From: Pelagibaculum spongiae
GTDB lineage: Bacteria; Pseudomonadota; Gammaproteobacteria; Enterobacterales; Pelagibaculaceae
Length of the DNA stretch: 64,000 bases
Assembly (NCBI RefSeq): GCF_003097315.1
Contig: NZ_QDDL01000012.1
Span: forward strand, 1 to 64,000
Direction of reading: 5' to 3'
The translations under genes were made by a program, and so were the position numbers. A model generated the notes under the pieces. It ran no database searches. It saw only the letters and a list, made by a program, of their open reading frames with translations, and was not told the DNA's origin. Numbering within the stretch: position 1 is the stretch's first letter; each line of letters starts with the position of its first letter. This document shows, in pieces, positions 16,400 to 43,474 of the stretch.

Positions 16400-16435
16400 G
16401 ACTGCCTATTTTTCTAATGCATTAGTTAGGCAGTC
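16400..16435. repeat. Nested palindromes about 125 bp upstream of the SNF2 gene
   Basis: Arms GACTGCCTA (16400-16408) and TAGGCAGTC (16427-16435) enclose a perfect 12-bp palindrome CTAATGCATTAG (16414-16425). The position fits an operator for the defence operon. No regulator gene sits nearby. Confidence 0.45.
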
Positions 16436-16557
16436 AATTCTATCAACAGTTAACCCTAAGTTCGTGCAATTCATAACGCAGCTTGGTCATAACTGAATTT
16501 AAAAACACCCCACCATCAATTATTTAACGAAAATTTCGGCGCTCAAAGCCGGATGAT

Positions 16558-19449
16558 ATGAGTATCAGCATGGCGAATAAGCAAACCAATTATGCCCCGG
16601 GTATGCGGGTAGTCGTTAGAGATACTGAATGGGTGATCCAGAAGGTCGATCCCACATCAGATGGTGGATATCTTTTGACTTGCGAAGGTATTTCAGAGCT
16701 TGTAAATGGTAAGCAGGGCAGATTTTTAACTAATCTGGAGCAACAGATCGATGTTCTCGATCCTGCACAAACTCAACTAGTAGAAGATGAGTCTTCAGCT
16801 TATCTAACTTCGCGCCTGTATATCGAGAGCATGCTGCGCCAGCGTTTACCTACTGATCAGCGAGTTCATCTTGGTCACAAAGCAGCGATGGACCCACTAC
16901 CATTCCAGCTCGATCCAGTAAAAATAGCACTCCAACAGCCTCGACAAAGAATTTTAATTGCTGATGCAGTTGGCCTGGGAAAAACTCTAGAAGCGGGCAT
17001 TCTAGTATCTGAATTAATTCGTCGCGGTAAAGGCAAACGCATCTTAGTGCTTACCGTAAAGTCTATGTTGACTCAATTTCAGAAAGAGCTTTGGTCTCGT
17101 TTCGCTATTCCTTTGACCCGTCTTGATTCAACTGGCATTCAGAAAATTCGTAATAGGGTACCGACCAATCACAACCCATTTCATTATTACGATAAGTCCA
17201 TTGTTTCAATTGATACCATCAAACAAGATGTCGAATACCGCCATTATCTAGAGAATGCTTATTGGGACATTATCGTCATCGACGAAGCGCATAATGTGGC
17301 AGAGCGGGGTACAGGCTCGCAGCGTAGTAAGCTAGCTAGGCTATTAGCCCGCCGTAGTGATACGTTAGTGATGCTTTCTGCAACACCGCATGATGGAAAA
17401 GCAGAAAGTTTTGCCAGTCTGGTAAACATGCTAGATGCAACGGCAATAGCTAATCCATCTGATTATCAGTATGACGATTTCAAAGACAAAAATCTGGTAG
17501 TTCGACGTTTCAAAAAAGATGTTAAAGATCAGATGAAACAAGCCTTTCCCGAGCGCCACATCGAACCTATCCACAGTGAAGCCAGTCTGGAAGAAGAGGA
17601 AGCTTATCGCCGTCTGGTTGATCTGGAACTGGCAGCAATGGACAGTCAGCGTAATACCAGTCGCCTATTCAAGGTTACTCTTGAAAAAGCACTCTTTTCC
17701 AGTCCTATGGCATGTTTATCGACAGTCGAAAATCGCATCAAAAATTTACAACGCCGAGATGATTCGGAGTTACAGTGCGATATTAATGAACTGGAATCAT
17801 TTGCCGGTGCATTAAAAAATATCGATAAAAATAGTTTTAGTAAATATCACTCGCTATTAAATACTATTAAAAAAGATTTTTCTTGGAAAAAGAATAATTC
17901 AAGTGATCGATTAGTAATTTTTACCGAAAGTATTAAAACATTAAATTTTTTATTCCAAAACTTAAAAGATGATTTAAAGCTTTCAGATAAGTCCATCCAA
18001 GCCATGCACGGCGGCATGCCAGATACTGAAATCATGCAGATTGTTGAGGACTTTGGCAAAGAAAGTGCCCCTATTCGTTTGCTAGTGTGCTCAGATGTCG
18101 CTTCAGAAGGTATTAACTTGCATCATCAAAGCCATAAGATGATCCATTTCGATGTGCCCTGGTCGTTGATGGCTTTTCAGCAACGTAACGGTCGTATCGA
18201 TCGCTATGGCCAACAGCAACAGCCTCAAATTCGCTATCTGCTCACCAAAAGTGACAATGGCAAAATTAAAGGTGACATGCGAGTGTTGGAAGTCTTGATT
18301 GAAAAAGACGAACAAGCACAAAAGAATATTGGCGATAGCTCAGAATTTACTCGGCGTTACAGCATCGAAGAAGAAGAGCAGCAAGTTGCTGATGTGATGA
18401 GTAACGATGGCCATCAGGACCCAGCAGCAGTATTAAATGCGCTATTTGAAAACAACACTCAAAATACCACTGAGCAAGATCCATTAGCCGCACTATTTGC
18501 CAATACAGCACATCAACCTGAACCTCAGGAAGCTGTTCAGGAAATGTCTCTATTCAAAAACGATATGGATTACAGCCAACAGGCATTAAAATATCTAAAA
18601 TCACTTAACCAAACGCTGAATTATGAGGTTGATAGCAGCCAACAAGTCCTGTCGCTATATGCACCACAAGACTTACGCCAGCGTTTTAAGTTTTTACCAC
18701 CTGAAATTCAGCCCAATAAAGACAACCATCATATGTTGCGCTTTAGCCATAAAACGGAACTGGTTAATCAGGAAATCATAAACTGCCGTAGTGAACAAAC
18801 AGCATGGCCAAAGATCCAGTATTTATGGCCAATCAATCCTGTTGCACAATGGCTAAACGATAAAATGTTATGTGCTTTTGGCCGTCACCAAGCACCTGTT
18901 TTACGTATCACGAAAATATTCCAAGCAGAAGAAGATCATTTTATTCTCAGTGGCTTATTCCCTAATCGTAAATCTCACCCAGTCGTTAACCCGTGGTTAG
19001 TGGTTAGTTTTGATCGAGGAAATCTATCCGAAATCAAACCATTTGAAGAGTTCGTAGAGCAGCATCCGTTTCATATTGACGTCATCACTAACCAAGGCGG
19101 AGCGCGCAATCATGAGCGCCAGCAAGATTTACTACCAACAGCAATTGCTATGGCTGAGCCATGGATGAAAACCCGGCGCAATGAAGTTGATAAAGAATTA
19201 AGCCAACAGCTAGAGCAGCAATTAACAAAGTTATCCAAATTAAAATCCAAACAGATAAGTCAGCTGGAGTTGAATTTTGCCGATAACAAGCAAGCACAGC
19301 ACTTGGTAGAAGGACGTAAAGAACAGCGCCAGCGAGAAATTGAGCAGGTATTTGATGAATACCAGCAATGGATACAAGACACTATGACCACCGAAGACCA
19401 GCCGTATATTCAGCTGGTGGCGGTATTAACCGGCTCAGAAGGATATTAG
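16558..19449 (+). CDS. SNF2/RapA-type helicase, DrmD-like
   Basis: The 963-residue SF2 ATPase has Walker A ADAVGLGKTLEAGILVSELI (near 140), DEAH-type IIVIDEAHNV (near 240), MLSATPHDGKAESF (near 275) and the helicase C-terminal motifs VCSDVASEGINLHHQ and QQRNGRIDRYGQ (near 510-550). The C-terminal 350 residues are a charged accessory region. This is the SNF2-like helicase found as DrmD next to an adenine methyltransferase in class 1 DISARM. It is the first of four plus-strand genes. The next gene starts 3 bases after its stop. Expected role, from the family: ATP-driven DNA translocation during recognition or restriction of foreign DNA. Similar RapA-like helicases also occur in other restriction islands. 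Confidence 0.85.
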   Translation: MSISMANKQTNYAPGMRVVVRDTEWVIQKVDPTSDGGYLLTCEGISELVNGKQGRFLTNLEQQIDVLDPAQTQLVEDESSAYLTSRLYIESMLRQRLPTDQRVHLGHKAAMDPLPFQLDPVKIALQQPRQRILIADAVGLGKTLEAGILVSELIRRGKGKRILVLTVKSMLTQFQKELWSRFAIPLTRLDSTGIQKIRNRVPTNHNPFHYYDKSIVSIDTIKQDVEYRHYLENAYWDIIVIDEAHNVAERGTGSQRSKLARLLARRSDTLVMLSATPHDGKAESFASLVNMLDATAIANPSDYQYDDFKDKNLVVRRFKKDVKDQMKQAFPERHIEPIHSEASLEEEEAYRRLVDLELAAMDSQRNTSRLFKVTLEKALFSSPMACLSTVENRIKNLQRRDDSELQCDINELESFAGALKNIDKNSFSKYHSLLNTIKKDFSWKKNNSSDRLVIFTESIKTLNFLFQNLKDDLKLSDKSIQAMHGGMPDTEIMQIVEDFGKESAPIRLLVCSDVASEGINLHHQSHKMIHFDVPWSLMAFQQRNGRIDRYGQQQQPQIRYLLTKSDNGKIKGDMRVLEVLIEKDEQAQKNIGDSSEFTRRYSIEEEEQQVADVMSNDGHQDPAAVLNALFENNTQNTTEQDPLAALFANTAHQPEPQEAVQEMSLFKNDMDYSQQALKYLKSLNQTLNYEVDSSQQVLSLYAPQDLRQRFKFLPPEIQPNKDNHHMLRFSHKTELVNQEIINCRSEQTAWPKIQYLWPINPVAQWLNDKMLCAFGRHQAPVLRITKIFQAEEDHFILSGLFPNRKSHPVVNPWLVVSFDRGNLSEIKPFEEFVEQHPFHIDVITNQGGARNHERQQDLLPTAIAMAEPWMKTRRNEVDKELSQQLEQQLTKLSKLKSKQISQLELNFADNKQAQHLVEGRKEQRQREIEQVFDEYQQWIQDTMTTEDQPYIQLVAVLTGSEGY

Positions 19450-19451
19450 TT

Positions 19452-22400
19452 ATGGCACTGGTAGGAATTAGCAACGAAAACGATTTTTATTCCCACCATT
19501 ACTTGAGTGAAATTTTTGTTAATGACCTCAAGGATCTGCTAGGACAATGGCTGGAACAGGAAAATAATGCCCGAGAAGCAGAACGCCAAGAGCGTGATAA
19601 GGGTGGCAATCCACCTGCCGGTTATCGTTCGCCGGTCACTAGATTAAGTAGTGCTTCCGGTGGTTTTTTTAAGCTACTCAATCAGCATCGCAAAGAAACT
19701 GATCCCGTTCGGCGATTGGCCAATCAACGTTTACGCTGGCAGCCCATATTGGCCGCAATGGATTTTTCTCCTGCCAATGAGCAATTTAAACCGGTAACCG
19801 TCCCACTTGATCAGGGTGAGTTGCCAGTGCTGGCAGCTTTCAATGATGCCCATAATGCACCGCTTTTATGGGTGGTTGAAGCCCATGATCTCTCTAACGA
19901 CGATTGCGCTGATCCTTTATCTCTGCCTTTATTACCAGAACAGTTAAAAAATATTAGTGAAGAATCACGCGGGGTATTTTCCAGTAATGACAAAGGCCAA
20001 AAACACTCATTAAACTGGCAGGAAATCCTGTCGAAAAAAATATTTAGCGCCATCGAGCCACCACGTTGGGTTTTACTGCTAGGTAATCGCCAGTGTTTAT
20101 TGCTTGATCGCACCAAATGGGCACAAAACCGTTTGCTGCGATTCGATATTGAAGAAATTCTTGGCCGTCGTGAAGCGAATACGCTAAAGGCAATGGCAGC
20201 ACTGCTGCACAAAGACTCAATCTGCCCGCAACAGGGCAGTAGCCTGCTAGACACGCTGGATGAATCTTCTCATAAACATGCTTTCTCCGTATCAGAAGAC
20301 CTGAAATACGCACTGCGTGAATCTATCGAATTGTTGGGTAATGAAGCCTCCAGGCAACTGTTGGAAAAAGGCTTTACCTACGATGGCGGCAAAAATATCA
20401 ACCCTGATCAGTTGTCGCGGGAAAGTCTGCGCTATATGTATCGGTTGTTGTTTTTGTTTTATGTCGAAGCACGGCCGGAACTGCGTTATGCGCCGATTGA
20501 CTCTGAAATCTACCTCAAGGGCTACAGCCTGGAATCGTTGCGTGAACTAGAGATGATCGATCTCACCAGTGACGAGTCGCGCAATGGCCGCTACCTGCAT
20601 GACAGTTTGCAAATGCTATTCAAGCTGGTCAGCCAGGGCTTTTCTGGCCAGGAACACACTCCACAAGATGAGATGTTCCAACAACAACACGGCACGCTAA
20701 TTAACAGCTTTTCCATGCGCAAGTTGGAAAGTCACCTGTTTGACGACAGTGGTATGGCTTATTTGCGCAATATTGTATTTCCCAACCAGGTGCTGCAGCG
20801 GATTATCGAATTGATGTCGCTAAGCCGGGAAAAATCTGGCCGTGGCCAGCGTCGCGGACGTATTTCCTATGCTCAGCTGGGTATTAACCAATTGGGGGCA
20901 GTGTATGAAGCACTGCTGTCATACCGTGGTTTTTTTGCCAAGAAAGATCTGTTTGAAGTAAAAAAAGCCGATGAAAAACCCAGCGAACTGGATACCGGTT
21001 ATTTTGTCACCGCTGAGCAGTTGCCGGAATACAATGAAAATGAAAAAGTGTTTTACCAAAGTGGCCCTAACAAAGGCGCGCTAGTTAAACATGCCAAAGG
21101 TCGCTTTATCTATCGGATGGCCGGGCGTGACCGTCAGAAATCGGCCTCTTACTACACCCCGGAAGTATTGACCAAATCTCTGGTCAAATACGCGCTGAAA
21201 GAGTTATATCAAACTCAGCTGCAGCCATTGGAACAATCTGATGATAAAGCCAGTGCCGCCGCGCAAGCCGAGCGTATTTTACAACTCAAGGTTTGCGAGC
21301 CAGCGATGGGTAGCGCGGCGTTCTTGAATGAAGCCATTAACCAGTTGGCAGAAAAATATCTGGAGTTGAAACAACAAGCCCAAGATCAGCGAATTCCTCA
21401 GGAAGATTACACTCGGGAATTACAGCGGGTAAAAATGTTTATTGCCGATAACAATGTATTCGGCGTCGATTTAAACCCGGTGGCGGTAGAACTGGCTGAA
21501 GTATCGTTATGGTTGAATGCCATTAGCGATGAAGCTTTTGTCCCCTGGTTCGGTTTTCAGTTGTTTAACGGTAACTCACTGATTGGTGCCCGGCGCCAGG
21601 TGTTCTCAACCGGTGATCTTGAGTATAAAAAAGCCAAAGATCCCAGCTGGCTTAACCTGCCGCCAAAACCTCTGGCATTTGACCAGCAACCAGCACAGCA
21701 GGTGTATCACTTTTTGCTGCCAGACAGTGCCATGGCAGATTATAAAGACAAGGTGGTCAAAGGCCTTAAGGCAGAGCAGATAAAAACCATTACCAGCTGG
21801 CGCAAGGATTTTTGCAAAAGCTTTAATCAGCTGGAAAAGCAGCGTTTGCAACAGCTGTCACAACAAATCGATTTGTTATGGCAAGCTTGGGTTAAACAAA
21901 GCCGCCAGTTCCGCCAGCAAACGACGGATAATCTGCAGGTTTGGCCAGAATCCACCGTCTCAAGCTATGCCAGTGACACCAGCAGCAAAGACAGCCAGCT
22001 GCAACAGGCCAATAGCCCAGCCTATCTGCAGCTAAAAACCATTATGAATTATTGGTGTGCGCTTTGGTTCTGGCCGATTGATCAGGCCGGGTTACTGCCC
22101 AATCGTGAAGCCTGGCTGAGCCAGTTGGAAATACTGGCATTTGGCAAATTGGCCGAGCAGAGCCCGAGCGAACAGCAAGCTGACGCTCCAGCATCTCAGT
22201 TCAATGAAACTGCAGCAGCTTCTGCCAATCACATCAAAGGCCAGGCTTTATTTGAAAAAGGTCTACCCAGCTTGGTACTGACGCAGGCAATACCACAGCT
22301 TAAAATTATCAATCAGCTGGCAGGCCAGTATAAATACTTCCATTGGGAGCTGGAGTTTGCTGATATTTTCCATGACCAGGGCGGTTTTGATTTGATTCTT

Positions 22401-24464
22401 GGTAACCCGCCATGGCTAAAGGTTGAATGGGAAGAAGGTGGCATACTGGGCGACTATGAACCATCATTTGTCATTCGCAAACTCAGTGCGTCCAAACTAA
22501 ATAATCTTCGTGCAGAGACTTTTGAGAACATTCCTAACTTGCAGGCCGCTTATCTGCAAGAGTATCAAGGTGATGCCGCAACTAAAAACTTCTTGAATGG
22601 CGCAGTAAACTATCCAGATTTAAAAGGCATTCAAACCAATTTATATAAATGCTTTTTGCCGCAATCCTGGATGATTGGAAACCAGCAGGGAGTGAGTGGT
22701 TTCCTGCACCCAGAAGGAATTTATGACGATCCTAAAGGTGGTACTTTTCGAGAAAAAATATACCCTCGCTTAAGAGCACATTTCCAACTGCAAAATGAGC
22801 TGAGCTTATTTGCAGAGGTGGACCACCATGCAAAATTTAGCTCTAATATTTACTCATATGATCGTGAATATATTGAATTTTTACATATTTCTAACATTTT
22901 TGCAGTAGATACAATCGACCAATGCCATACAAGTTGTCATGGTATGGTTCCAACCATAAAGTGTGAAGATAATAAGTGGGAAACTAAAGGCCATACAGAA
23001 CGCTGTATCACTATTGACAATGAAACTCTTTCACTATTTGCAGCGTTGTATGATGTAGAAGGCACAAAGCTTGAAGCTGCTCGCTTGCCTTCCTTGCATA
23101 CAAAACAATTAATATCAGTACTGCGAAAATTTGCAAAGCAGCCACATAAGCTAGCTAATTTATCTGGCACCTATTTGTCTTTAGAAATGTGGCATGAAAC
23201 TAATGCTCAAAAAGATGAAACTATTGAAAGAAAAACAGGTTTCAGCAGAAAAACTAGCCAAATGGTATTATCTGGACCTCATTTTTTCGTTGGCAATCCA
23301 TTTAATAAAACGCCCAGAGCCTCTTGTAAGTTAAATAGTGATTACGATGTCTTGGACTTAACCCATCTGCCTGATGATTATTTGCCACGTACCAACTATG
23401 TACCAGCTTGTGATGCTGCTGAGTATCTAAAGCGTACGCCAAAAGTGCCATGGATCGATGATGCAGACCTACAACAATGGCAAGCCGCTGGTAGCAAACC
23501 TGAAGATAAACCCAACCCAAGGCCGGTAACGGATTATTATCGGTTAGCGCTAAGAGGTATGTTAAATCCAACTCAAGAAAGAACTTTGATAGGAATGATC
23601 TCTTTAAAAGGGACGTCGCATACTAACGCAGTACGTACTTACGTTTTCAAAGATAATTTTTTATTAACTACTGTGGCAGCAGCAGCAGCTTCTTTACCAT
23701 TTGATTTTATGTGTAAATCAACGGGCAAAGCTAACCTCCATCAAATGCTAGATGACTTTCCTCTAATTGAAAACAGCAAATATGCTAAAGAGATCGTAAG
23801 GCGATTTTTATTACTCACAACATTAACTATTGATTACAAAGAACTTTGGGAAAGTCTATTTGAGCACCTACCTTTTAATAACTACTGGTTAAAAAAAGAT
23901 TTTCGTCTTTCTAATCAGCTTCTTAAAGACATAACGCCCAAATGGCAGCGTAATTGTGCGTTACGCTCTGACTATGCGCGTCGCCAAGCATTGGTTGAGA
24001 TTGATGTGCTGGTGGCTATGGCATTGGAAATGACGCTGGAAGAGCTCAAAACCATTTATCGGGTTCAGTTCCCGGTAATGCGCCAGTATGAAGCCGATAC
24101 CTGGTATGACCGCAATGGACGAATTGTCTTTACCGCTTCCAAAGGTTTGGTGGGGGTTGGGCTTGACCGAAAGTTTAAGAAAAACGGCAGTTATAGCATA
24201 TCAGTCATCGATGGTGTGCTTGCTGATAAAACCAAAGGAGAGGGTTCTGAAGAGCAACCATGGTTTGAAACCCATGGCAAAATTGGTTGGGAAAACATCT
24301 GCGATCTACAGCGCGGTAGCGTCAGTAAAACCTTTATCGATAACACTCTGCCCGGCGGTGAAGTAGAGCGCACCATTGAATATATCGCCCCGTTTGATAA
24401 ATGCAGCCGAGAGCTGGATTACGAGGAAGTCTGGGCCAATTTTGAGCAGAGGCTCAAAGACTAG
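19452..24464 (+). CDS. Large Eco57I-type adenine-N6 methyltransferase, DrmMI-like
   Basis: The protein has about 1670 residues from ATG 19452, preceded by AGAAGGA. A longer frame starting inside the SNF2 gene lacks support. SAM motif I is CEPAMGSAAFLNEAI near residue 614; FGVDLNPVAVELAEVSLWLN follows. Catalytic motif IV is LILGNPPWLKVEW near 985, so a long insert separates the motifs. This arrangement is that of Eco57I-class N6-adenine methyltransferases such as DISARM DrmMI and BREX PglX. I see no PD-(D/E)xK nuclease motif, so cleavage would need a partner. It probably marks host DNA and lets the flanking helicases act on unmodified DNA. The 264-base gap after it holds two hairpins. Confidence 0.88.
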   Translation: MALVGISNENDFYSHHYLSEIFVNDLKDLLGQWLEQENNAREAERQERDKGGNPPAGYRSPVTRLSSASGGFFKLLNQHRKETDPVRRLANQRLRWQPILAAMDFSPANEQFKPVTVPLDQGELPVLAAFNDAHNAPLLWVVEAHDLSNDDCADPLSLPLLPEQLKNISEESRGVFSSNDKGQKHSLNWQEILSKKIFSAIEPPRWVLLLGNRQCLLLDRTKWAQNRLLRFDIEEILGRREANTLKAMAALLHKDSICPQQGSSLLDTLDESSHKHAFSVSEDLKYALRESIELLGNEASRQLLEKGFTYDGGKNINPDQLSRESLRYMYRLLFLFYVEARPELRYAPIDSEIYLKGYSLESLRELEMIDLTSDESRNGRYLHDSLQMLFKLVSQGFSGQEHTPQDEMFQQQHGTLINSFSMRKLESHLFDDSGMAYLRNIVFPNQVLQRIIELMSLSREKSGRGQRRGRISYAQLGINQLGAVYEALLSYRGFFAKKDLFEVKKADEKPSELDTGYFVTAEQLPEYNENEKVFYQSGPNKGALVKHAKGRFIYRMAGRDRQKSASYYTPEVLTKSLVKYALKELYQTQLQPLEQSDDKASAAAQAERILQLKVCEPAMGSAAFLNEAINQLAEKYLELKQQAQDQRIPQEDYTRELQRVKMFIADNNVFGVDLNPVAVELAEVSLWLNAISDEAFVPWFGFQLFNGNSLIGARRQVFSTGDLEYKKAKDPSWLNLPPKPLAFDQQPAQQVYHFLLPDSAMADYKDKVVKGLKAEQIKTITSWRKDFCKSFNQLEKQRLQQLSQQIDLLWQAWVKQSRQFRQQTTDNLQVWPESTVSSYASDTSSKDSQLQQANSPAYLQLKTIMNYWCALWFWPIDQAGLLPNREAWLSQLEILAFGKLAEQSPSEQQADAPASQFNETAAASANHIKGQALFEKGLPSLVLTQAIPQLKIINQLAGQYKYFHWELEFADIFHDQGGFDLILGNPPWLKVEWEEGGILGDYEPSFVIRKLSASKLNNLRAETFENIPNLQAAYLQEYQGDAATKNFLNGAVNYPDLKGIQTNLYKCFLPQSWMIGNQQGVSGFLHPEGIYDDPKGGTFREKIYPRLRAHFQLQNELSLFAEVDHHAKFSSNIYSYDREYIEFLHISNIFAVDTIDQCHTSCHGMVPTIKCEDNKWETKGHTERCITIDNETLSLFAALYDVEGTKLEAARLPSLHTKQLISVLRKFAKQPHKLANLSGTYLSLEMWHETNAQKDETIERKTGFSRKTSQMVLSGPHFFVGNPFNKTPRASCKLNSDYDVLDLTHLPDDYLPRTNYVPACDAAEYLKRTPKVPWIDDADLQQWQAAGSKPEDKPNPRPVTDYYRLALRGMLNPTQERTLIGMISLKGTSHTNAVRTYVFKDNFLLTTVAAAAASLPFDFMCKSTGKANLHQMLDDFPLIENSKYAKEIVRRFLLLTTLTIDYKELWESLFEHLPFNNYWLKKDFRLSNQLLKDITPKWQRNCALRSDYARRQALVEIDVLVAMALEMTLEELKTIYRVQFPVMRQYEADTWYDRNGRIVFTASKGLVGVGLDRKFKKNGSYSISVIDGVLADKTKGEGSEEQPWFETHGKIGWENICDLQRGSVSKTFIDNTLPGGEVERTIEYIAPFDKCSRELDYEEVWANFEQRLKD

Positions 24465-24511
24465 TAAATAAAAATGGGAGGGTAAGCATAAATTACCTTC
24501 CTATGGCTGAG

Positions 24512-24605
24512 CCTCGTCAATTCCTGACGAGGTTATCAGGAAAAATACTGAATTAAATTCACATTGGTGGCATTACCTCAAAAGCGCTGCTTAACGCTTT
24601 TGAGG
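24512..24605. repeat. Two hairpins in the methyltransferase-helicase gap
   Basis: CCTCGTCA/TGACGAGG (24512-24519, 24525-24532) and CCTCAAAAGCG/CGCTTTTGAGG (24576-24586, 24595-24605) are perfect inverted repeats in the only sizeable gap (24465-24728) of the operon. Neither has a T-tract. They could reduce downstream expression, stabilise the mRNA, or bind a regulator. Confidence 0.5.
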
Positions 24606-24728
24606 AATCATTCTCCCGCCAAAGCAGTAATTGTTGGTATGGCCGCCTGATGTTAGGTTGAGATATCGCTATCTCAGAATATTTCCGGGCAGCACCTGGG
24701 ATCAATCAAATAAAAACAGGGGATTAGC

Positions 24729-27700
24729 GTGTTACCCTCAGTACTGAGTCAACAGGTCATTAGCGGCCTGCAGAAATATGTAAAGTCAGCGTTTACTATG
24801 AATAGCCCGTGCTTTAACCAGCCAGATTATTCAATGATGGATACATTTTTAAATAATAAAAAAAATCTGGTTAAAGGGCCTTATCTGTCGATTCAGTTGC
24901 CATTTCGTCAAAGTGATTTATCACTACAATTTTTTAAGCATTTTAATTTACCTTTTCCACCCTATGCCCATCAGGCACAAGCCTATCAGAGGTTAGGTCA
25001 GCGACCACCACAATCAACACTGGTTGCTACCGGTACCGGCTCGGGTAAAACTGAGTGTTTTCTGTACCCAATCGTGAATGCCTGCGCTGAAAGCAATAGT
25101 CAGCATGGTCATAGTAAGGGAGTCAAGGCGATCATCATCTATCCGATGAATGCTTTGGCTACTGACCAAGCAAAACGCTTTGCTAAGGTAATTGCTGAAA
25201 ACCCAGCGCTAACGGGCAAAGTGAGTGTTGGACTATTTGTCGGTGGTGATTCATCGGATGAAAATAGTAGCCAAATGACCGCCAAACAAGTGATTACTGA
25301 TAAGGAAGCTCTGCGGAAAGAACCACCAGATATTTTACTTACCAACTATAAAATGCTCGATTATTTGCTGATGCGGCCTGAAGATCAGAGCCTATGGCAG
25401 CATAATCAGCCTGGCACTTTGCAGTATCTGGTGGTGGATGAACTACATACTTTTGATGGTGCCCAAGGATCTGACTTAGCGTGTTTAATTCGCCGCCTGA
25501 AATATCACCTAAGTGTTGAAGATGACAGCTTTGCCTGTGTTGGTACCTCGGCTACTGTGGGTGATCAACTTCAACCATTGCTGGATTTTGCCGGCAATAT
25601 TTTCGACAGCCAGTTTGATGAAAATGCAGTCATTAAAGAAGACCGTTATCACTACAGTGAATATTTATTGGGACAGCAAACTTGTTACTTTGCCTACCCA
25701 GGAATAGATCAGCTACAAAGACTAGATTATCAGACGGTTACTGGAATAGAAAAAAATGAAGTGGCCTATCTGAACCGACAGATTGCGCTGTGGTTTCCTG
25801 AACTAAAACTGACGCTGGATAATAATCTGGAAAGTGATCAGGGATGTGCTGATCGGATTGCTTTGGGTCAAGCAATTAAAAACCACAGCTTTTTCGAAAG
25901 TTTGCTGCAAATGCTCGATAGCCAGCTGAGAAATATTAGTTCATTAGTGGCCGAGGTCAGCCCGGCGCTAGCAATAAATGAGTATCAAGCTGAGCAGGTG
26001 ATTGACAGCTTTGTCAGTCTGGTATCGGTTGCCAGAAGCCCAATAGCTGAAACACCTTCCAGCCAGCAAGAACGTGTTGCCAAAGGCAATCCCCGTCCGG
26101 TATTGCCTTTACTACAAGTTCGTCATCAATTATGGCTACGTGAACTACGTCGCTTGGTAGCCAGCGTTGCATTGCAGCCTGAACTGAATTTTGTCGATGA
26201 TCTGGCCCATGACCTAGAGCAGCACTATTTACCGGTAATTAATTGCCGTGACTGCCATGTAACGGGGTGGGGCACTTTTTTCAACGGCATTCAAGATACC
26301 CCCGAAACCGATATTGATGCTTTTTACCGGATGTTTTTTGCTAGAAATCATAATATCCGAATTCTATTTCCGCTAGCTGATGATACCAAAGCACCTGAAA
26401 AAGCTCGGGTGATGAAATTATGCTGCCAGTGTTTGCAATTAAATGGAGATGGCGCCAGCCACTGTAACCAGTGTGAACAAATTAAATTAGTACGGATCTT
26501 TATTCCGGATTTAATTAGTGATTCTGAAAAACATGGACCGCAATTTAAAAACCGCTGCCCTTGTTGCCATAGCAATAATGGCCTGTCAGTAATGGGTGCC
26601 CGGGCGGCTACTTTATCCAGCGTAGCGATCAACCAGATCTATGCCAGTCGGTTTAACGACAATAAAAAACTGATTGCATTTTCTGATTCGGTACAGGATG
26701 CAGCCCATAGAGCGGGCTTTTTTACCGCACGGACCTGGCCTTTAATGGTTCGTGGTCATATCGGGAATGTTGCCAGCCAGCATGACGGCATTAGTGCGGC
26801 AGAATTAACGGATCATGTAATAAAACACGGTCAGCTGCAGTCAGGTAGCGATGAACATTTTGTGGCGAATTTTATTGCGCCCAATATGGAGTGGTTAGAT
26901 GACTACCGTAAGCTGATTGACCATGAAGGTAATGGCAAGCTGGGCAGGGAAAGCAACCTGGCACAACTAGTGGGGCTCCGTTTGAGCTGGGAGGTCATTA
27001 GCGAGCTGGGAATGCGTTCACAGTTTGGCCGTACTCTGGAACGTAGTCATGAGCTGGCGATTGATTTCTGTGATGATGATTTCTTTAAAATCGCTTCTCG
27101 CTTACATGCAGAGCTCACTGAGGAGCTGGGCGCAGAGTACTGTGGTGTCAACGACCAAGATGTGCAGCACTTTTTACTTGGTCTGCTGCAACAAATGCGT
27201 CATAAAGGTGCGGTTTATCACGATGCATTAAAAGCTTATATAGAAGATGGTGGTGAAACTTACCGGCTAACCAAGGTTAATCTCTTTACCTCACGCTTTA
27301 TGCCAAATTGGGGTAAGAAAACCCGAACACCAGCATTTTTGTGTTTTGGAAAAACCCCCAATTTCGACAATTTACTTGGTTCAAAAAACCGCCCCAGTTG
27401 GCATCAGCAATGGGTAGTTAAATGTTTTGAAAAAGAACAAAACTTATTAATTAGTAACCATACCACCACCATTTACAGCAGCGCTATGCGCCAGTTAAAG
27501 CGGTGTGGGGTGGTAAATGATTTCGATGCTAAGGACGAAAAAGTTTGGGCGATCGATCCAAATGCCATGTTCATTCGCCAACAAGTAGATGTTATTGGTT
27601 GTGATCAGTGTAACGAGACTCAAGTAGTAGCAAAAAAGGCTCTGGATTATTACCAAGGTATGCCTTGTCAGCGAGATCAGTGTTTTGGGGCAATGACCCA

Positions 27701-30700
27701 AAAATTAGCACCATTACAAAAAGAGTGGGCACAGGCTCAGGTGCACCGGGTTAATGCTGCTGAGCACACCGGTTTGCTGGAACGAAAAGAGCGGGAAGCT
27801 ACCGAAAACTCGTTTATCCAAAATCAGCAGCCATGGGATATCAATTTACTCTCTGCCACGCCAACTCTAGAAATGGGTATTGATATTGGTGATTTATCAT
27901 CGGTATTACTGTGCTCAGTTCCGCCGGCACAAGCTAATTATTTGCAGCGTATTGGTCGTGCAGGACGAAAGGACGGCAATGCTTTTAATATGACCGTGGC
28001 GGGCGGTAATCCTCATGATCTGTATTTTTACCAAGACCCTCTAGAAATGATGGCGGGTAGTGTGGCTGCACCGGGAGTATTCCTCGATGCTTCGGCCATT
28101 TTACAACGTCAGCTGACCGCTTTTTGTATGGATCGCTGGATCAAGAGTGGTGTTGGCCCTGAAGCTATCAGCAAAATGGTTAAGCATATGCTGAATGCGA
28201 CTGAAGCGAATAAACAAGACCAGTATCCTTATAACTTTCTAAATTTTGTTGAAAGCCAAAAAGAATCTTTGTTCGATCAGTTTACCGGTATTTTTGATCA
28301 GTTATCCGATGGATCAAAAGAGAACTTGCGTACTTTTATTTTGGGTAATGATCAGCAATACAGTTTGGCAGGAAAGATCCAGCAATCATTGCAGCTATTG
28401 GTTAAAGATCGTAAGTCATTAAAGAGCCGTGCAGATAAACTGAAGCGGCAAATTGACAAGTTAAATCAATCGCCAGAAAAAGATCTGAATTATGAGAGAG
28501 ATCTGGATGATTTGACCAAAGAGCGTGATGCATTATTAAAATTGGTACGGCAAATTAATGCCAAGCACACACTCAATTTTATGACCGATGAAGGTTTGTT
28601 GCCCAATTATGCTTTCCCGGAAGCAGGTATTACGCTGCGCTCTGTACTCTGGCGCAAGAATGAACGCCATGAAAAAACAAAAGATACCGAAAATTTTGAG
28701 CAGAAATTCAATACCCAAACTTTCGAATATGAACGCCCTGCAGCCACTGCTATTTCTGAGCTTGCGCCTTCAAATCATTTCTACGCTGGTGGCCACAAAG
28801 TAGAAATCGATCAGATTGATTTAAAAGTCTCTGAAATCGAAACCTGGCGTATCTGTAGCCACTGCAATCATAGTGTTCAATTGGATACGGATCATCTTGC
28901 TGACTGCCCTAAGTGTGGCCATCCCTCTTGGAGTGATCCAGATCGTAAGATGCAAATGCTGATGTTGCGTCAAGTCTATGCTCGTTCCAGCAGTCGCGAC
29001 AGCAGAATTTCTGATGATTCTGACATGCGCCAGCCATCGTTTTTCCAGCGTCAGATGCTGGTGAGCTTTGAGCCTGAGCATATTAATTATGCCTATCAGG
29101 TTGAAAACCAAGATGTACCTTTTGGTTTTGAATATTTAAATAGGGTTGCGCTACGCGACATTAACTTTGGCAGTGCTATTGATGATGCTGAAACCTTTGA
29201 AGTGGCAGGTGAGAAAAAGAAAAAAAGCGGTTTTGACGTGTGTAAAGACTGCGGGAAAGTCCGCAAACCCTATAAATTCGATAAATTCGAACATGATATT
29301 TCATGTAAATATCGTAATTCAGAACTAGAAGCAGAGTTTGAATCTTGCCTGTATCTGTACCGTCATCTGGAATCAGAGGCAATTCGTATACTTTTACCGG
29401 TCAGTAATAGGATTACTGGTGAGGTAACCGAAGCCTCATTGAGTGCGGCTTTGCAGCTTGGAATGAAGCTGTATTTCAAAGGCAGCGTGGATCATCTGAA
29501 GGGAACGGTATATCGCGAACCGGAAGATGCTGGTGCTAGCCATCGCTACTACCTGGTGATTTATGATTCAATTCCTGGTGGTACTGGTGCCTTAAAAGAA
29601 CTTATGCAAACACCGGAAAATCTGCTGCGTTTACTGGATATGACCTTGCAGCATTTAAATGCCTGTGAGTGTGTTCTTGATGGCAAGGACGGCTGTTACA
29701 AGTGCGTTTACGCTTACCGGGAGCGTGGACGTATGCGCGCTATCTCCCGCGAACGAGCGAGTAATTTACTGAAATCGATTCTTGATGGTGGTGGTCAGTT
29801 AAAACAGATTAATTCCCTTTCAGATATTTCTGTTAAGTCACTGTCTGACTCTGAGCTGGAAGATCTGTTTATCGATAGCTTGAGCAAATCGAATCAAGAA
29901 TTTGTAGTTAATAAGGATTATGTGCGTGGCAAGGCCGGCTGGAGTATTTCTTCTAAACACAATGACACTATTGCCTGGGAAATGTTGCAGCATGTCCACC
30001 TAGGTGCCAGTGACGGTGTGCATGTAAATACCGAAGCCGATTTTGTGCTCTATCCGGCAAATCGTAATATGAACTGCAAGCCAGTGGCGGTTTATCTGGA
30101 TGGTTATCAATATCACAGAGATATTGTTGATGATGACGTCCGTAAGCGCACCGCTATCTTGAACAGTGGTCGCTATCAGGTCTGGAATTTGGGCTGGGAT
30201 GATTTAGCCAATACAGAAAATAGCCATTTTGTGGAGTTTCTTACTCAGCATCGCTCTGAAATTCAGCAAAAAGACGAGATCTGTAAGCAGCATCAAGTGC
30301 TAGGTGGCAATTACGCCATACTGCGCGACAGTTATGAAAATAAAAATAACTGGATGCTGTTAAAAAACTGGTTGCACCAACCAGATTCTATGACCAGAAC
30401 TTACCAGCAAGCAGGCTTTGCTAGCTGTTTTTACTGGCTCGCATTAATGAAATCACGAGATGATTCGGTAAAACACCGCTTTGGATATGAAATGCGTGAA
30501 AACGCCTCGTCGGATCGCTACCAGGAACTATGCCCTGGTCAGGACTGCTTTTTCGGCGGTTTACTAGATGCCGTGCGGACCTCTACAAAAAATCAAATTG
30601 TTGAGATTGCTGCGGTGATGCCAGAAGCCCCGCTGATGCATGTACTGACCAACATGGTGAAGAATCAGTCAAACTATGAATATTTGCTGCGCTCTATGCG

Positions 30701-31229
30701 ATTGCATGTCAGTTTTGATGATCGATATGTTGAAGACGAAGGTTTCCAACGGGCACTTAATGGTTTTTGGAAACTGGTGAATATCTGCCAGTTTTTACCT
30801 GATTTCAGCTTTACCTCTTATAAAACATTACGTTCAGAATCTGCTCATCCGCAGCAGCCAGCCACTGAACAGGCTGATGCATTTACTGAAGGAAGTGAGG
30901 TTAGATCTTTGGTTTTAGCATCTGGCACATTACAAGTGGCAGAGGATCCGAGGTGGCAAGAAATTATCGAGCTGGAATTATTGGAATCAGAGCACTTGCA
31001 ACAGTTGCTAGCCAGCAAGCTGCCGGTTCCGGAAATTGGTTATCCATTAATGAATGAGAAGGGCGTTTTGGTATTTGAAGCCGAACTTGCCTGGCCGGAG
31101 CAAAAAGTTGCACTGGTTGAAAATCTGCTATTGGATGCCGAGAAAATTTTCAACCATTTAGGTTGGCAATGTGTTGAAGGTGAGATTAATTCCACCACGT
31201 TATCCAAATTAAAAGAACTTGTGGGGTAA
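24729..31229 (+). CDS. Giant DEAD/DEAH helicase with DUF1998 and nuclease-like C-terminus (DruE/DrmAB-like)
   Basis: The 2166-residue protein starts at GTG 24729 with AGGGGA 8 bases upstream. Domains in order: DEAD helicase with Walker A ATGTGSGKTECF (~100) and VVDELHTFDGAQGSDLACLI (~236); several CxxC pairs at 500-620; helicase C LLSATPTLEMGIDIGDLSSV and RIGRAGRKDG (~1040-1080); a coiled coil near 1230; DUF1998 with IPGGTGALKEL and the CEC/CYKC cysteine pairs (~1613-1655); a Vsr/DUF559-like stretch VAVYLDGYQYHRD...DVRKRTAILNSGRYQVWNLGW (~1785-1825); and a short end module with PEIGYP and ELAWPE (~2100). The YprA/MrfA-type helicase plus DUF1998 is central to DISARM (DrmA, DrmB) and Druantia (DruE). 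Here both functions and a putative nuclease are in one chain. Confidence 0.85.
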   Translation: MLPSVLSQQVISGLQKYVKSAFTMNSPCFNQPDYSMMDTFLNNKKNLVKGPYLSIQLPFRQSDLSLQFFKHFNLPFPPYAHQAQAYQRLGQRPPQSTLVATGTGSGKTECFLYPIVNACAESNSQHGHSKGVKAIIIYPMNALATDQAKRFAKVIAENPALTGKVSVGLFVGGDSSDENSSQMTAKQVITDKEALRKEPPDILLTNYKMLDYLLMRPEDQSLWQHNQPGTLQYLVVDELHTFDGAQGSDLACLIRRLKYHLSVEDDSFACVGTSATVGDQLQPLLDFAGNIFDSQFDENAVIKEDRYHYSEYLLGQQTCYFAYPGIDQLQRLDYQTVTGIEKNEVAYLNRQIALWFPELKLTLDNNLESDQGCADRIALGQAIKNHSFFESLLQMLDSQLRNISSLVAEVSPALAINEYQAEQVIDSFVSLVSVARSPIAETPSSQQERVAKGNPRPVLPLLQVRHQLWLRELRRLVASVALQPELNFVDDLAHDLEQHYLPVINCRDCHVTGWGTFFNGIQDTPETDIDAFYRMFFARNHNIRILFPLADDTKAPEKARVMKLCCQCLQLNGDGASHCNQCEQIKLVRIFIPDLISDSEKHGPQFKNRCPCCHSNNGLSVMGARAATLSSVAINQIYASRFNDNKKLIAFSDSVQDAAHRAGFFTARTWPLMVRGHIGNVASQHDGISAAELTDHVIKHGQLQSGSDEHFVANFIAPNMEWLDDYRKLIDHEGNGKLGRESNLAQLVGLRLSWEVISELGMRSQFGRTLERSHELAIDFCDDDFFKIASRLHAELTEELGAEYCGVNDQDVQHFLLGLLQQMRHKGAVYHDALKAYIEDGGETYRLTKVNLFTSRFMPNWGKKTRTPAFLCFGKTPNFDNLLGSKNRPSWHQQWVVKCFEKEQNLLISNHTTTIYSSAMRQLKRCGVVNDFDAKDEKVWAIDPNAMFIRQQVDVIGCDQCNETQVVAKKALDYYQGMPCQRDQCFGAMTQKLAPLQKEWAQAQVHRVNAAEHTGLLERKEREATENSFIQNQQPWDINLLSATPTLEMGIDIGDLSSVLLCSVPPAQANYLQRIGRAGRKDGNAFNMTVAGGNPHDLYFYQDPLEMMAGSVAAPGVFLDASAILQRQLTAFCMDRWIKSGVGPEAISKMVKHMLNATEANKQDQYPYNFLNFVESQKESLFDQFTGIFDQLSDGSKENLRTFILGNDQQYSLAGKIQQSLQLLVKDRKSLKSRADKLKRQIDKLNQSPEKDLNYERDLDDLTKERDALLKLVRQINAKHTLNFMTDEGLLPNYAFPEAGITLRSVLWRKNERHEKTKDTENFEQKFNTQTFEYERPAATAISELAPSNHFYAGGHKVEIDQIDLKVSEIETWRICSHCNHSVQLDTDHLADCPKCGHPSWSDPDRKMQMLMLRQVYARSSSRDSRISDDSDMRQPSFFQRQMLVSFEPEHINYAYQVENQDVPFGFEYLNRVALRDINFGSAIDDAETFEVAGEKKKKSGFDVCKDCGKVRKPYKFDKFEHDISCKYRNSELEAEFESCLYLYRHLESEAIRILLPVSNRITGEVTEASLSAALQLGMKLYFKGSVDHLKGTVYREPEDAGASHRYYLVIYDSIPGGTGALKELMQTPENLLRLLDMTLQHLNACECVLDGKDGCYKCVYAYRERGRMRAISRERASNLLKSILDGGGQLKQINSLSDISVKSLSDSELEDLFIDSLSKSNQEFVVNKDYVRGKAGWSISSKHNDTIAWEMLQHVHLGASDGVHVNTEADFVLYPANRNMNCKPVAVYLDGYQYHRDIVDDDVRKRTAILNSGRYQVWNLGWDDLANTENSHFVEFLTQHRSEIQQKDEICKQHQVLGGNYAILRDSYENKNNWMLLKNWLHQPDSMTRTYQQAGFASCFYWLALMKSRDDSVKHRFGYEMRENASSDRYQELCPGQDCFFGGLLDAVRTSTKNQIVEIAAVMPEAPLMHVLTNMVKNQSNYEYLLRSMRLHVSFDDRYVEDEGFQRALNGFWKLVNICQFLPDFSFTSYKTLRSESAHPQQPATEQADAFTEGSEVRSLVLASGTLQVAEDPRWQEIIELELLESEHLQQLLASKLPVPEIGYPLMNEKGVLVFEAELAWPEQKVALVENLLLDAEKIFNHLGWQCVEGEINSTTLSKLKELVG

Positions 31230-31232
31230 ATA

Positions 31233-33407
31233 ATGACTGCTGTTGAAATGCCAAAAGTTGCAATTGCTGCTGATTTTTTATCCGCATTTGCAAAAATACC
31301 GAAAAAACAACAAAAAAAGGTTCAGGAATTTATTAGTAAATTTCGTCAAAACCCGACTAGTTCTGCGATTAATTATGAAAAAATTATCCAGGCCAGAAGT
31401 AAAGATGTTTTCTCAGTACGTATTGACTATGCCTATCGAGGCATCGTTCTTAAGCCAAAACAAGGCAATATCTTCATGTTGATGTGGGTGGATCATCATG
31501 ATGAGGCCTATGGCTGGGCTGAGCGTCATGAATGTGTAATTCACCGCTCTACAGGTGCTATTCAAATTGTTGATGTCAGCTACCAACAAGCCAGTGAAAC
31601 ACCACCACCTCAGCATATTGAGCCAGAACAAATCGCAAAACCCCAGCCTGTTGTGGCGGCAGAAGTTACACCGTTGTTTGCTGATTACAGCTGTGAGCAG
31701 ATTCTGGCTCTTGGTGTGCCAGATGCTTTTATTGATACTGTTATGTCACTTACTAGTGATAGAGAACTAGACAAACTTGAGTACCGCTTGCCGCCTGAAT
31801 CTTATGAACCACTATTTTTTCTTGCTGCAGGTGACAGCTACGATGAGCTGTTAAATCAATACAACCAAAGCACTGATGAAGCGGTTGATACCGAAGATTA
31901 TGCTGCGGCACTGGAGCGTGCTGTCAGCCAACGCAGTTTCAAACTGGTAACTGATGATCTAGATTTGCAGAAAATGCTTAATGCGCCCTTGGAAAAATGG
32001 CGAGTGTTTTTGCATCCAAGTCAGCGAAACTTGGTGAATAAATCCAACAAGGGCCCAACCCGAGTGTTGGGTGGTGCAGGTACAGGTAAAACGGTGGTGG
32101 CCATGCACCGTGCAGTGGCACTAGCTAAAGCAATTCCTAATGCCTCTGGCAGCAAGGTTTTATTCACTACTTTTACTCGAAATCTGGCGCTGGATATTGA
32201 ACATAGTCTGAAAAAAATTGCTTCAGAAGCTGAGTTAGCAAAAATTGAAGTCGTGAATATTGATAGCTGGGTGAGCCGTTTTTTATCGCGGTGTAACTAT
32301 GATTTTAAAGTGGTTTACGATCAGGATCAGATCCGTAAGCAATGTTGGAAGATTGCACTGGATCAAGCACCAGTTGAACTGAACCTTGAAGATCAGTTTT
32401 ACCGCGAAGAGTGGCATCATGTTGTGCAGCAAAATGATGTGCAAAGTCGCCAAGAGTACTTCAAGATCAGCAGGGTTGGTCGAGGTACACCGCTTACCCG
32501 TATTGAACGGGCGAAAATCTGGCCAGTTTTTGAAGAGTATCGCAATCAGATGAACCGCAAGCGGATTCGTGAAGTGGCCGATGCCATGATGGATGCTATC
32601 AAATTGCTTCGCGAGCGGGATCTATCTCTACCCTATAGCTCAGTTATTGTCGATGAAGCTCAAGACATGGGCCGACAAGCATTTACTCTATTACGAGCAC
32701 TCATCCCTGAAAAAGCCAACGATATGTTTATTGTTGGCGATGGTCATCAGCGAATTTATCGTAATAAAGTAGTATTGAGTCATTGTGGTATCAACGTGCG
32801 TGGTCGCCGTTCGCAAAAGCTTAAAATTAACTATCGCACCACAGAAGAAACCCGCCGCTTTGCCAGTAGTATTCTAAATAACGTTGAAGTAGATAACCTA
32901 GATGGCGAAGCAGATCAGTCGCATGATTATTTGTCGCTGTTTCATGGTGAACAGCCATTGGTAAAGCTGTTCAGCACCGGTGGTGAAGAGGTTACTTTTG
33001 TTCAGCAAACCATTCAGCAGTTATTACAGCAAGAAGATATTGAACTGAAAGATATCTGTATGGTAGCCCGAACCAAATATATTCGTAATAGCTATGCCAA
33101 ACAGCTGAATGACCTGGGAATTGAAACCTATTCTTTGTCCGGACAGAACGCTGATAGCAATAAAAGTGGATTACGAGTTGCAACCATGCACAGGGTCAAA
33201 GGCTTGGAATTTAAATATCTGTTCATTATCAATGTCAGTGACGGCGTCATTCCACTTTGCAATGGAAACAGTAATGACCCGGTGGAACAAAGAGACAATG
33301 ATTTCAACGAACGGGCGCTACTTCATGTGTCCGCTACTCGGGCAATTAAAGGCTTGTTTGTCACTGCTACGGGAACTCCAAGCACTTATTTAGCCTCGTT
33401 CCTTTGA
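31233..33407 (+). CDS. RelE-like domain fused to a UvrD/Rep-family helicase
   Basis: The product has 724 residues and begins 3 bases after the giant helicase. Residues 1-110 (FLSAFAKIPKKQQKKVQEFI, then VFSVRIDYAYRGIVL) have the RelE/ParE toxin-fold pattern, ending with a WVDHHDEAYGWAERH strand. From about 250 onward comes a UvrD-type SF1 helicase: Walker A RVLGGAGTGKTVVAMHRA, SSVIVDEAQDMG, INYRTTEETRRFA and VATMHRVKGLEFKYLFI. No nuclease domain is visible. The N-terminal domain may bind ribosomes or RNA, or may only be a structural adaptor; its catalytic residues cannot be judged. As the last gene of the four-gene operon it probably supplies 3'-5' DNA translocation. UvrD-like genes are frequent partners of restriction systems. 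Confidence 0.8.
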   Translation: MTAVEMPKVAIAADFLSAFAKIPKKQQKKVQEFISKFRQNPTSSAINYEKIIQARSKDVFSVRIDYAYRGIVLKPKQGNIFMLMWVDHHDEAYGWAERHECVIHRSTGAIQIVDVSYQQASETPPPQHIEPEQIAKPQPVVAAEVTPLFADYSCEQILALGVPDAFIDTVMSLTSDRELDKLEYRLPPESYEPLFFLAAGDSYDELLNQYNQSTDEAVDTEDYAAALERAVSQRSFKLVTDDLDLQKMLNAPLEKWRVFLHPSQRNLVNKSNKGPTRVLGGAGTGKTVVAMHRAVALAKAIPNASGSKVLFTTFTRNLALDIEHSLKKIASEAELAKIEVVNIDSWVSRFLSRCNYDFKVVYDQDQIRKQCWKIALDQAPVELNLEDQFYREEWHHVVQQNDVQSRQEYFKISRVGRGTPLTRIERAKIWPVFEEYRNQMNRKRIREVADAMMDAIKLLRERDLSLPYSSVIVDEAQDMGRQAFTLLRALIPEKANDMFIVGDGHQRIYRNKVVLSHCGINVRGRRSQKLKINYRTTEETRRFASSILNNVEVDNLDGEADQSHDYLSLFHGEQPLVKLFSTGGEEVTFVQQTIQQLLQQEDIELKDICMVARTKYIRNSYAKQLNDLGIETYSLSGQNADSNKSGLRVATMHRVKGLEFKYLFIINVSDGVIPLCNGNSNDPVEQRDNDFNERALLHVSATRAIKGLFVTATGTPSTYLASFL

Positions 33408-33429
33408 TCTAGTGGTTTTCCCGCTCTGC

Positions 33430-33449
33430 GGCGTAGGCAAGCCTACGCC
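33430..33449 (+). terminator. Inverted repeat downstream of the UvrD-like gene, possible terminator
   Basis: GGCGTAGGC-AA-GCCTACGCC, 23 bases after the operon stop, inside a larger imperfect repeat (CCGCTCTGC...GGGCGGAGAGG). The stem is strong, but only AAAAGGG follows and not a T-run. Termination is therefore possible but unproven. Confidence 0.4.
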
Positions 33450-33910
33450 AAAAGGGCGGAGAGGTGTGCTCTAAGGAGTATATTTCTTACTCAGTTTCTG
33501 CAAAGCAGTCTGATCACCGATCGCAATACTCAAGTATTTTATTTTTTACGATTTAGATTTTCTTTGGTTCACTTCCAGTAGATATTTTGTTGCTTTGTAA
33601 TCATATCGAACAACGTTTTTAAGAAAATATTCAATCAATTCACATGCACTGCTATCTGTAACGCACCGATTCATCGCTTCAACATTCATATTAATGCGCC
33701 AATTTCTTGTTGAAATTAAAATCAAAATATGATATTTATTTATAAGTTTTATAGGTCTTATAAGTTTTATAGGTTTATATTTATTAAGAAGTGGAGGGTA
33801 TAGTCGCTGTCTGATTTGACGAGCGGCGAGCAGTTTCCTCTAAAAAAACGCGAACGCTCCCAGGCAGAATTGCGTTTTTCGTGGCAGAATTACGTTTTCC
33901 CCGGCTGCTC

Positions 33911-43473: not shown

Positions 43474-43474
43474 A

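Follow-up and report, generated by a model that had tools for sequence, protein, structure and literature searches.

The sequence analysed here, called the window throughout, is a 64,000-nt stretch of Pelagibaculum spongiae DNA that forms the start of a 127,275-bp contig (C12, NZ_QDDL01000012.1) in a genome of 4.99 Mb. Four open reading frames (ORFs) lie on its plus strand at 16558–33407 and encode proteins of 963, 1670, 2166 and 724 residues. They very probably constitute an anti-phage system of ARMADA Type II, armABCD, on a 127-kb plasmid-like contig (rough probability 0.88). The genes and one junction between them are as follows.

armA, 16558–19449, plus strand: SNF2/RapA (BrxHII/DrmD-like) helicase, 963 residues; Walker A K142, Walker B D242
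armB, 19452–24464, plus strand: PglX/Eco57I-like methyltransferase, 1670 residues; S-adenosylmethionine motif G620, NPPW motif N985
armB–armC junction, 24465–24728: 264 bases; strong hairpins if transcribed
armC, 24729–31229, plus strand: YprA-family DEAD helicase with MZB/DUF1998, 2166 residues; Walker A K107, Walker B D237
armD, 31233–33407, plus strand: RelE-like domain fused to a GajB-like UvrD helicase, 724 residues; Walker A K286, Walker B D474

An earlier note on this DNA had described four plus-strand genes with SNF2, Eco57I-type, DEAD/DUF1998 and UvrD domains, and both the ORFs and Pfam agree: Pfam recognised SNF2 and Helicase_C in ArmA, an Eco57I/MmeI methyltransferase in ArmB, DEAD, Helicase_C and MZB (DUF1998) in ArmC, and UvrD in ArmD. 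The top PADLOC labels, among the best 25 matches listed per search, were DrmD, type IIG restriction-methyltransferase, DruE3 and GajB, respectively. No NCBIfam match of any of the four proteins reached its curated cut-off. ArmA is also similar to RapA (phmmer, E 6e-29). The note's spacing, 3 bases at every junction except one of 264, is correct for armB/armC and for armC/armD, but the armA/armB junction is 2 bases. The open frame of armB extends over 19368–24464, and the 1670-residue protein begins at an inner start at 19452. The armC gene starts with GTG and its frame is closed five codons upstream of it, so that the 264-base gap is not a missed N-terminus of ArmC.

Membership in ARMADA Type II

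ARMADA Type II is an already described class. According to the text of a bioRxiv preprint (Bell et al. 2025, PMC12458937), its genes follow a strict order: a BrxHII/RapA-like helicase, a PglX-like methylase, a YprA helicase and a RelE-fused GajB-like UvrD. The E. coli system protects against phages, this protection is lost when any one of the genes is deleted, and infected cells remain intact, the defence being direct and non-abortive (same text). The same order is found in the window, with a BrxHII-like, a PglX-like and a YprA protein followed by a GajB-like UvrD that has an N-terminal RelE. Compared with E. coli C4 (NZ_CP010121), whose Zorya-Druantia-ARMADA island lies beside fim, identity is 65.1% for ArmA (948 aligned residues), 55.2% for ArmB, 51.1% for ArmC and 61.1% for ArmD. 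Published mutations that reduce or abolish defence affect ArmA K136 and D236, ArmB G605 and N971, ArmC K110 and D234, and ArmD K266 and D454 (PMC12458937, in the text seen). Their numbering, that of strain NCTC 12900, fits the C4 proteins at 8/8 positions, and all eight residues are conserved at the aligned positions of the window proteins.

A tree of ArmC was built from 34 rows and 1902 columns (quick IQ-TREE run, with support from the Shimodaira-Hasegawa-like approximate likelihood ratio test, SH-aLRT, only). Its labels (28 type II, three type I-like and three DruE rows) were assigned in this analysis and do not come from a published tree. The window ArmC joined the enterobacterial ArmC rows (SH-aLRT 100) within the group of 28 type II rows (SH-aLRT 100), one of which, L063, has neither armB nor armD. 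Outside this group were the three DruE rows, one of them from the window's own contig, and the three type I-like rows, namely Rhodococcus and Mesorhizobium, where the YprA gene comes first, and Thermus, where it comes after the methylase (placed there by hand). As the DruE rows are long-branched and the tree has no DrmA row, its deeper order is not claimed. The earlier note had proposed, as a refuting test, that the helicase might group inside DruE or DrmA: ArmC falls outside the DruE rows, and for the DrmA half we rely on PADLOC scores and the published account. A search of 114 genomes of the class with the PADLOC profile found no DrmA at E<=1e-60, and no control matched either.

Synteny was examined in a species-genome collection scanned with a four-row ArmC alignment; the 80 loci retained are the best 80 of 520 confirmed candidates and not a random sample. 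They come from Pseudomonadota, Cyanobacteriota, Bacillota, Planctomycetota, Bacteroidota, Acidobacteriota and other phyla. Where enough sequence was available, armD followed armC in 62/64 loci, armB preceded it in 49/52 and armA was present in 34/34; all four genes were visible in 35/80. The exceptions were L049 and L063 for armD, and L031, L047 and L063 for armB. The same gene order was found on two cyanobacterial plasmids, a Streptomyces plasmid and a Klebsiella plasmid; on the Nostoc plasmid one small gene sits between armB and armC. Conserved synteny of the four genes, which the earlier note had asked for, is thus present across phyla. An ArmC-profile match at E<=1e-50 was obtained in 3/59 genomes (mostly of the same order, the window's included), and the system is therefore sparse.

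Two domains were examined by structure prediction.

Probable PD-(D/E)xK (Vsr-like) nuclease of ArmC, 29847–30389, plus strand: residues ~1707–1887; AlphaFold2 model aligned with VIA-align
RelE/YoeB-like fold of ArmD, 31233–31574, plus strand: residues 1–114; E49, R63, R69, H89, Y93

The model of the ArmD N-terminus (predicted local distance difference test, pLDDT, 92.5) was RelE/YoeB-like. Its top Foldseek match was archaeal RelE (1wmi, E 6.8e-5, probability 1.00), and 18 matches were obtained at E<=0.001. The five residues listed above were all kept in 42/51 ArmD N-termini. The RelE part of the fusion claimed in the earlier note is thus supported by predicted structure and not by Pfam, which found no RelE in ArmD at E<=0.001; a profile search of solved chains with the N-terminus reached RelE/YoeB only at E 0.08–0.39, with unrelated chains ranked higher. 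The RelE alignments used 29/52 rows, those with an eroded motif (L038, L041, L055, L061, L067, L072 and others) being left out, and the full count is that of the 51 N-termini.

For ArmC, residues 1697–2166 were modelled with pLDDT 84.6 (AlphaFold2). The first C-terminal domain aligned with the homing endonuclease I-Bth0305I (Z 8.1), which we take to be of the Vsr family, BsoBI (8.0) and Vsr (7.6), which are tied. D1771, D1791, H1796, D1803, R1807 and D1825 were invariant in 42 picked rows; the alignment of the C-terminal region used 41/69 loci. A sequence search with the C-terminal profile found no relevant solved chain. ArmC thus probably carries a PD-(D/E)xK-like nuclease, as judged from the model, and the Vsr subtype is not singled out by this test. 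In the text of PMC12458937, the ArmC C-terminal end is described as an active Vsr domain followed often by inactive EEP and Vsr domains, and ArmC of ARMADA II as having BrxA-like, zinc beta-barrel and MarR-like inserts. Nothing specific aligned in the middle of the C-terminal region, and an EEP-like domain is not claimed there.

The assignment to ARMADA Type II is based on the identity to E. coli C4, the eight conserved residues, the tree, the synteny, the RelE fold and the nuclease-like fold. The operon is a divergent member of the class, outside the E. coli lineage that has been tested. The earlier note had tentatively placed it in a YprA-helicase class between DISARM and Druantia and had mentioned the name ARMADA. 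The class is supported and matches ARMADA Type II as given in the text of PMC12458937, and that name was right, by gene order, identity, residues and tree. The note had also stated that there was no DrmC: none was among the matches listed, but a probable nuclease domain is fused to ArmC, so that the system is not necessarily nuclease-free.

Several observations weigh against this assignment. The operon is known here from its sequence and predicted folds, and ArmC shares just 51% identity with its E. coli counterpart. The nuclease alignment is moderate, since the tied Z scores of 7.6–8.1 are closely followed by unrelated mitoribosomal chains (7.0 and 6.8), and the ArmC C-terminal model had no Foldseek match at E<=0.001. 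A search of solved chains with the profile of ArmB gave nothing at E<=0.01, and the best PADLOC label of ArmB is that of a type IIG restriction enzyme-methyltransferase. Finally, the five RelE residues are incomplete in 9/51 ArmD N-termini and largely lost in L038, L041, L055, L067 and L072, and because of these losses RNase activity of this domain may not be general.

Each of the four proteins matches many single families, as would be expected from a chance neighbourhood of known helicases and a methyltransferase without joint function. The order nevertheless recurs across phyla, and is therefore not a chance arrangement; four genes were seen in 35/80 loci and, where there was sequence room, armD was missing in 2/64, armB in 3/52 and armA in 0/34, which leaves this explanation practically no weight. 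That the operon is instead a divergent form of DISARM or Druantia is very improbable. The top profiles of ArmA (DrmD, 346 bits) and ArmC (DruE3, 366 bits) point towards it, but the true DruE3 of the same contig scores 2529 bits, the DruE and type II rows separate in the ArmC tree, and there is no DrmB, DrmC or DruH among the matches listed for the four proteins.

Two further rivals concern the part played by a single protein. ArmB could be a type IIG restriction-modification enzyme in its own right and carry most of the defence, with the helicases as helpers: its best PADLOC match is REase_MTase_IIG, with 899 bits and a best stretch covering residues 188–1574. This is improbable, as all four genes are needed in E. 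coli according to the text of PMC12458937, and the profile may itself stem from ArmB proteins. The RelE/YoeB fold of ArmD and its five residues, conserved in 42/51 N-termini, could also belong to a ribosome-dependent toxin by which the system finally arrests the host. We regard this as rather unlikely, since the assays published for E. coli point to cells that stay viable and are not shut down (PMC12458937, text seen) and the RelE residues are lost in several relatives.

For the ARMADA Type II reading, we infer a course of action from the domains and the published E. coli mutants. ArmB, an adenine methyltransferase, would read or mark DNA, recognition being guided by methylation or structure. 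ArmA, a SWI2/SNF2 motor, would move on duplex DNA. ArmC, a YprA-type helicase, would open the invading DNA and cut it with its fused Vsr-like nuclease, and ArmD, a UvrD motor with a RelE-like domain, would process the exposed strand or its transcripts. The outcome would be direct interference with phage replication, not cell suicide.

The armB–armC junction is an insertion slot

In an ORF-based count, the armB–armC junction, taken as the distance between the armB stop codon and the point where the armC match begins, exceeded 500 bases in 27/53 loci. Such a length was found in 1/39 armA–armB and 1/69 armC–armD junctions, both in L075; one armA–armB row with an impossible gap (−4683) was kept within the 39. 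In a first count, 27/69 armC–armD gaps were also above 500 bases; these were mostly unaligned ArmC tails, and that count was replaced by the ORF-based one. L075, an ARMADA II locus, thus has insertions at each of its junctions, and the ARMADA locus L062 comes from the same metagenome-assembled genome (MAG).

Among the slot ORFs of at least 130 residues, largely non-overlapping, 71/78 were on the operon strand, and in 23/27 filled slots all ORFs were. The first ORF began less than 200 bases from the armB match in 23/27 slots, and the last ended less than 200 bases from armC in 22/27. Fifteen of the 27 loci with a filled slot have no MAG label in their title. In a 54-row ArmC tree, 25 rows of which have a filled slot, the slot switched between filled and empty at least 15 times; its state was assigned by hand from annotations for the rows of the window, E. 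coli, Nostoc, Pseudanabaena and Streptomyces, and the Nostoc slot was counted as filled by one 558-bp gene. The armB–armC junction is thus an insertion slot of ARMADA II operons.

A PADLOC search over the 71 plus-strand slot ORFs gave AriA, HEC-01, GajA/PtuA and Leo as the commonest families, with 3–5 members each (best 25 of 461 families); these ATPase profiles overlap and single names are unsure. Pfam found AbiE, GmrSD, dynamin, Schlafen and PIN domains, among others. Ten chosen slot ORFs were scanned singly against the PADLOC profiles. Strong matches were obtained for MkoA and MkoB (L040), HamB (L045), ZorA2 (L050), LeoB (L071) and PDC-M68B (L084), weak ones for the slot ORFs of L079 and L085, and none at 1e-10 for L022:8183 and L050:5106. 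Some slot genes are therefore components of Zorya, Hachiman and Mokosh. No mention of the slot was found in the text seen of PMC12458937, which stresses strict gene order. Effectors embedded in core loci have been described for BREX, in the text seen of PMC12839542, so that the idea of a slot is not new in kind. It offers a place to look for uncharacterised defence genes.

Among the armB–armC junctions, 25 measure at most 200 bases and are all shorter than the 264-base gap of the window, and one, of 279 bases, is close to it. The gap folds well below its shuffles (z −5.35). No further copy of it was found in the genome at E<=0.001, and the window, this gap included, had no Rfam match at gathering scores; on these two grounds a repeated element was rejected. 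A scan of 15850–34700 gave 24 promoters, with 38.4 expected, and 26 terminators, with 17.5 expected, and was not used as evidence.

A tail common to ArmC and ZorE

The window ArmC and the window ZorE, a protein of the Zorya II system downstream of the operon, end in similar stretches.

ArmC C-terminal tail domain, 30936–31226, plus strand: residues ~2070–2166; homologous to the ZorE tail; weak PvuRts1I-like fold
ZorE C-terminal tail, 40940–41152, plus strand: residues 300–370; homologous to the ArmC tail

The last domain of ArmC aligned weakly with the 5-hydroxymethylcytosine endonuclease PvuRts1I (4oky, Z 5.3, 89 residues). A hidden Markov model of the ArmC tail was made from the 22/74 tails that fit a motif chosen after the window ArmC and ZorE had been viewed. 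It was run against 13,086 stop-to-stop ORFs, which contain copies of the same DNA, and matched 72/85 ArmC-like ORFs above 1500 residues, three of the 85 being the window ArmC. Beyond large ArmC ORFs, it recognised only the ZorE of the window (E 3.4e-15) and of L050 (3.1e-15) and three borderline ORFs (E 0.0015–0.01). It also matched 6/6 ZorE proteins (32–55 bits, the weakest being that of E. coli C4) and two further ZorE that had been identified solely from the core region (27 and 50 bits), and gave no match to three shorter ZorE.

The reverse profile, from six ZorE tails, involved no motif choice; three of its rows (L115–L117) came from a mixed-seed search. It matched 64/85 ArmC-like ORFs above 1500 residues and no other large ORF, as well as two ZorE and one 145-residue ORF of L061. 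Among the 21 that it missed is the ArmC of L050, a locus with a tail-bearing ZorE in its slot. Shuffled ZorE sequences gave 0/1800 reports even at E 100, and the window ZorE had no Pfam match at E<=0.001. In 299 genomes of the phylum, the mixed-seed profile had nine matches (four ORFs of 366–391 residues, four of 2104–2171 and one of 1281). As the tails of each protein are recognised by the profile of the other, these tails of ~75 residues form one family and, judged by their sequences, are homologous. In L061 (14855–15289), an ArmC-type tail forms the separate 145-residue ORF, between armC and armD.

Among genomes with a tail-bearing ZorE, DruE3 was found in 5/6 and ArmC in 2/6 (the window's and G118); genomes with a tail-less ZorE (n=3) had neither at E<=1e-30. 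Judged by these few genomes, the tail accompanies Druantia III more often than ARMADA. The text of a 2026 preprint (PMC13192584) reports that 53/59 Druantia-associated ZorE leaves carry a nuclease-like C-terminal region, left unassigned there, and ties the ZorE tail to Druantia–Zorya synergy. Our counts are only consistent with the 53/59 report, because three of the six genomes belong to one genus and were found by the tail search itself, and because G606, with a weak tail match, has neither DruE3 nor ArmC. A general linkage of ARMADA and Zorya was considered and not retained: only L050 had a ZorE with a clear tail match among the 80 loci (flanks of at most 10 kb, many shorter). In G118 (C259), another genome of the class, ZorE and ArmC are encoded on the same strand, ~8 kb apart, and Zorya II could lie directly upstream of armA.

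The word ZorE is absent from the main text of PMC12458937, and Vsr from the main text of the Zorya preprint, the supplements of which may note a link, as may those of the former. A literature search for ZorE together with ARMADA gave only this Zorya preprint. The ArmC tails give relatives to the ZorE region left unassigned in the text of PMC13192584, and the common tail could explain, simply and in a testable way, the synergy within Zorya-Druantia-ARMADA islands. A tentative idea, which we hold to be possible but doubtful, is that ARMADA II serves as a platform to which other defence systems attach themselves, through the DNA slot and through the common tail. If it is true, foreign defence cassettes inserted at the one fixed place between armB and armC could be co-expressed with ARMADA II; the tail, through a DNA structure or partner that ArmC and ZorE would both bind, could link ARMADA with Zorya II and Druantia III; and the ZorE tail, so far connected with Druantia synergy only, would be one copy of a common coupling module.

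Neighbouring genes and comparison with known systems

The other features of the contig are as follows; coordinates prefixed C12 are those of the contig.

1010–6764: ParA, KorB-like ParB and AAA_25 ATPase; plasmid-like partition/replication region
34687–35181: Fic N-terminal fragment, after armD
35812–37496: JukA and JukB homologues, between armD and Zorya II (PADLOC, E 3e-40 and 2e-29)
37639–41155, plus strand: Zorya II (zorA 37639–39339, zorB 39339–40043, zorE 40043–41155), downstream of the operon and not part of ARMADA; PADLOC/NCBIfam
42886–44365: AbiEi/AbiEii type IV toxin-antitoxin pair
45170–46168: coiled-coil protein, whose N-terminus presumably resembles plasmid KfrA proteins
46486–47658: full SoFic-like Fic protein
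47766–48914: tyrosine recombinase
50126–50827: GmrSD C-terminal domain protein
51622–52611 and 54612–55904: two HipA-type kinases
C12:116098–125776, minus strand: Druantia III pair (DruE 116098–122427, 2109 residues; DruH 122462–125776, 1104 residues)

The contig is called plasmid-like solely because of its partition and replication genes; no exact overlap of its ends was found at the lengths tried. The stretches 57850–63836 and C12:65293–71457 hold an RtcR-like sigma-54 regulator and a MoxR-like AAA protein, followed by kinase-, PP2C- and vWA-like ORFs, these last recognised by reading N-terminal sequences alone. Together they may form a vWA-MoxR ternary conflict system.

Class 1 DISARM resembles the operon in its SNF2 helicase, adenine methyltransferase and YprA-type helicase with DUF1998. 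In the window, however, helicase and DUF1998 (MZB) are in one chain of 2166 residues instead of separate DrmA and DrmB, no DrmC is among the matches listed, and there is an extra RelE-UvrD gene; the defining set of separate DrmA, DrmB and the phospholipase D (PLD) nuclease DrmC is thus not that of the four proteins. Druantia III has a similar giant YprA-type helicase of ~2100 residues, whereas ArmC has no DruH partner and groups separately in the ArmC tree. The operon lacks the DruE with DruH partner that marks Druantia III, the contig's own pair being elsewhere. The C-terminus of ArmC carries a probable Vsr-like nuclease, that of Druantia III PLD-like domains (PMC12458937, text seen). ZorE of Zorya II is like ArmC in its homologous C-terminal tail of ~75 residues, whereas the rest of ZorE (DUF8245 and HNH domains, according to the text of PMC13192584) showed no match to ArmC in the searches made.

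The system is closest to ARMADA II of E. coli NCTC 12900 and ATCC 8739, with which it shares the four genes, their order, the domain types, the published catalytic residues and the company of Zorya II and Druantia III; ATCC 8739 natively carries all three systems. The window's contig thus unites the same trio as the E. coli island, but in another arrangement: Druantia III is ~83 kb from armD, whereas in E. coli it is directly upstream of armA. The system of the window is also on a plasmid-like contig, and its armB/armC gap is 264 bases, versus a 1-base overlap in E. coli C4. Such a divergent ARMADA II is useful to tell conserved from lineage-specific features.

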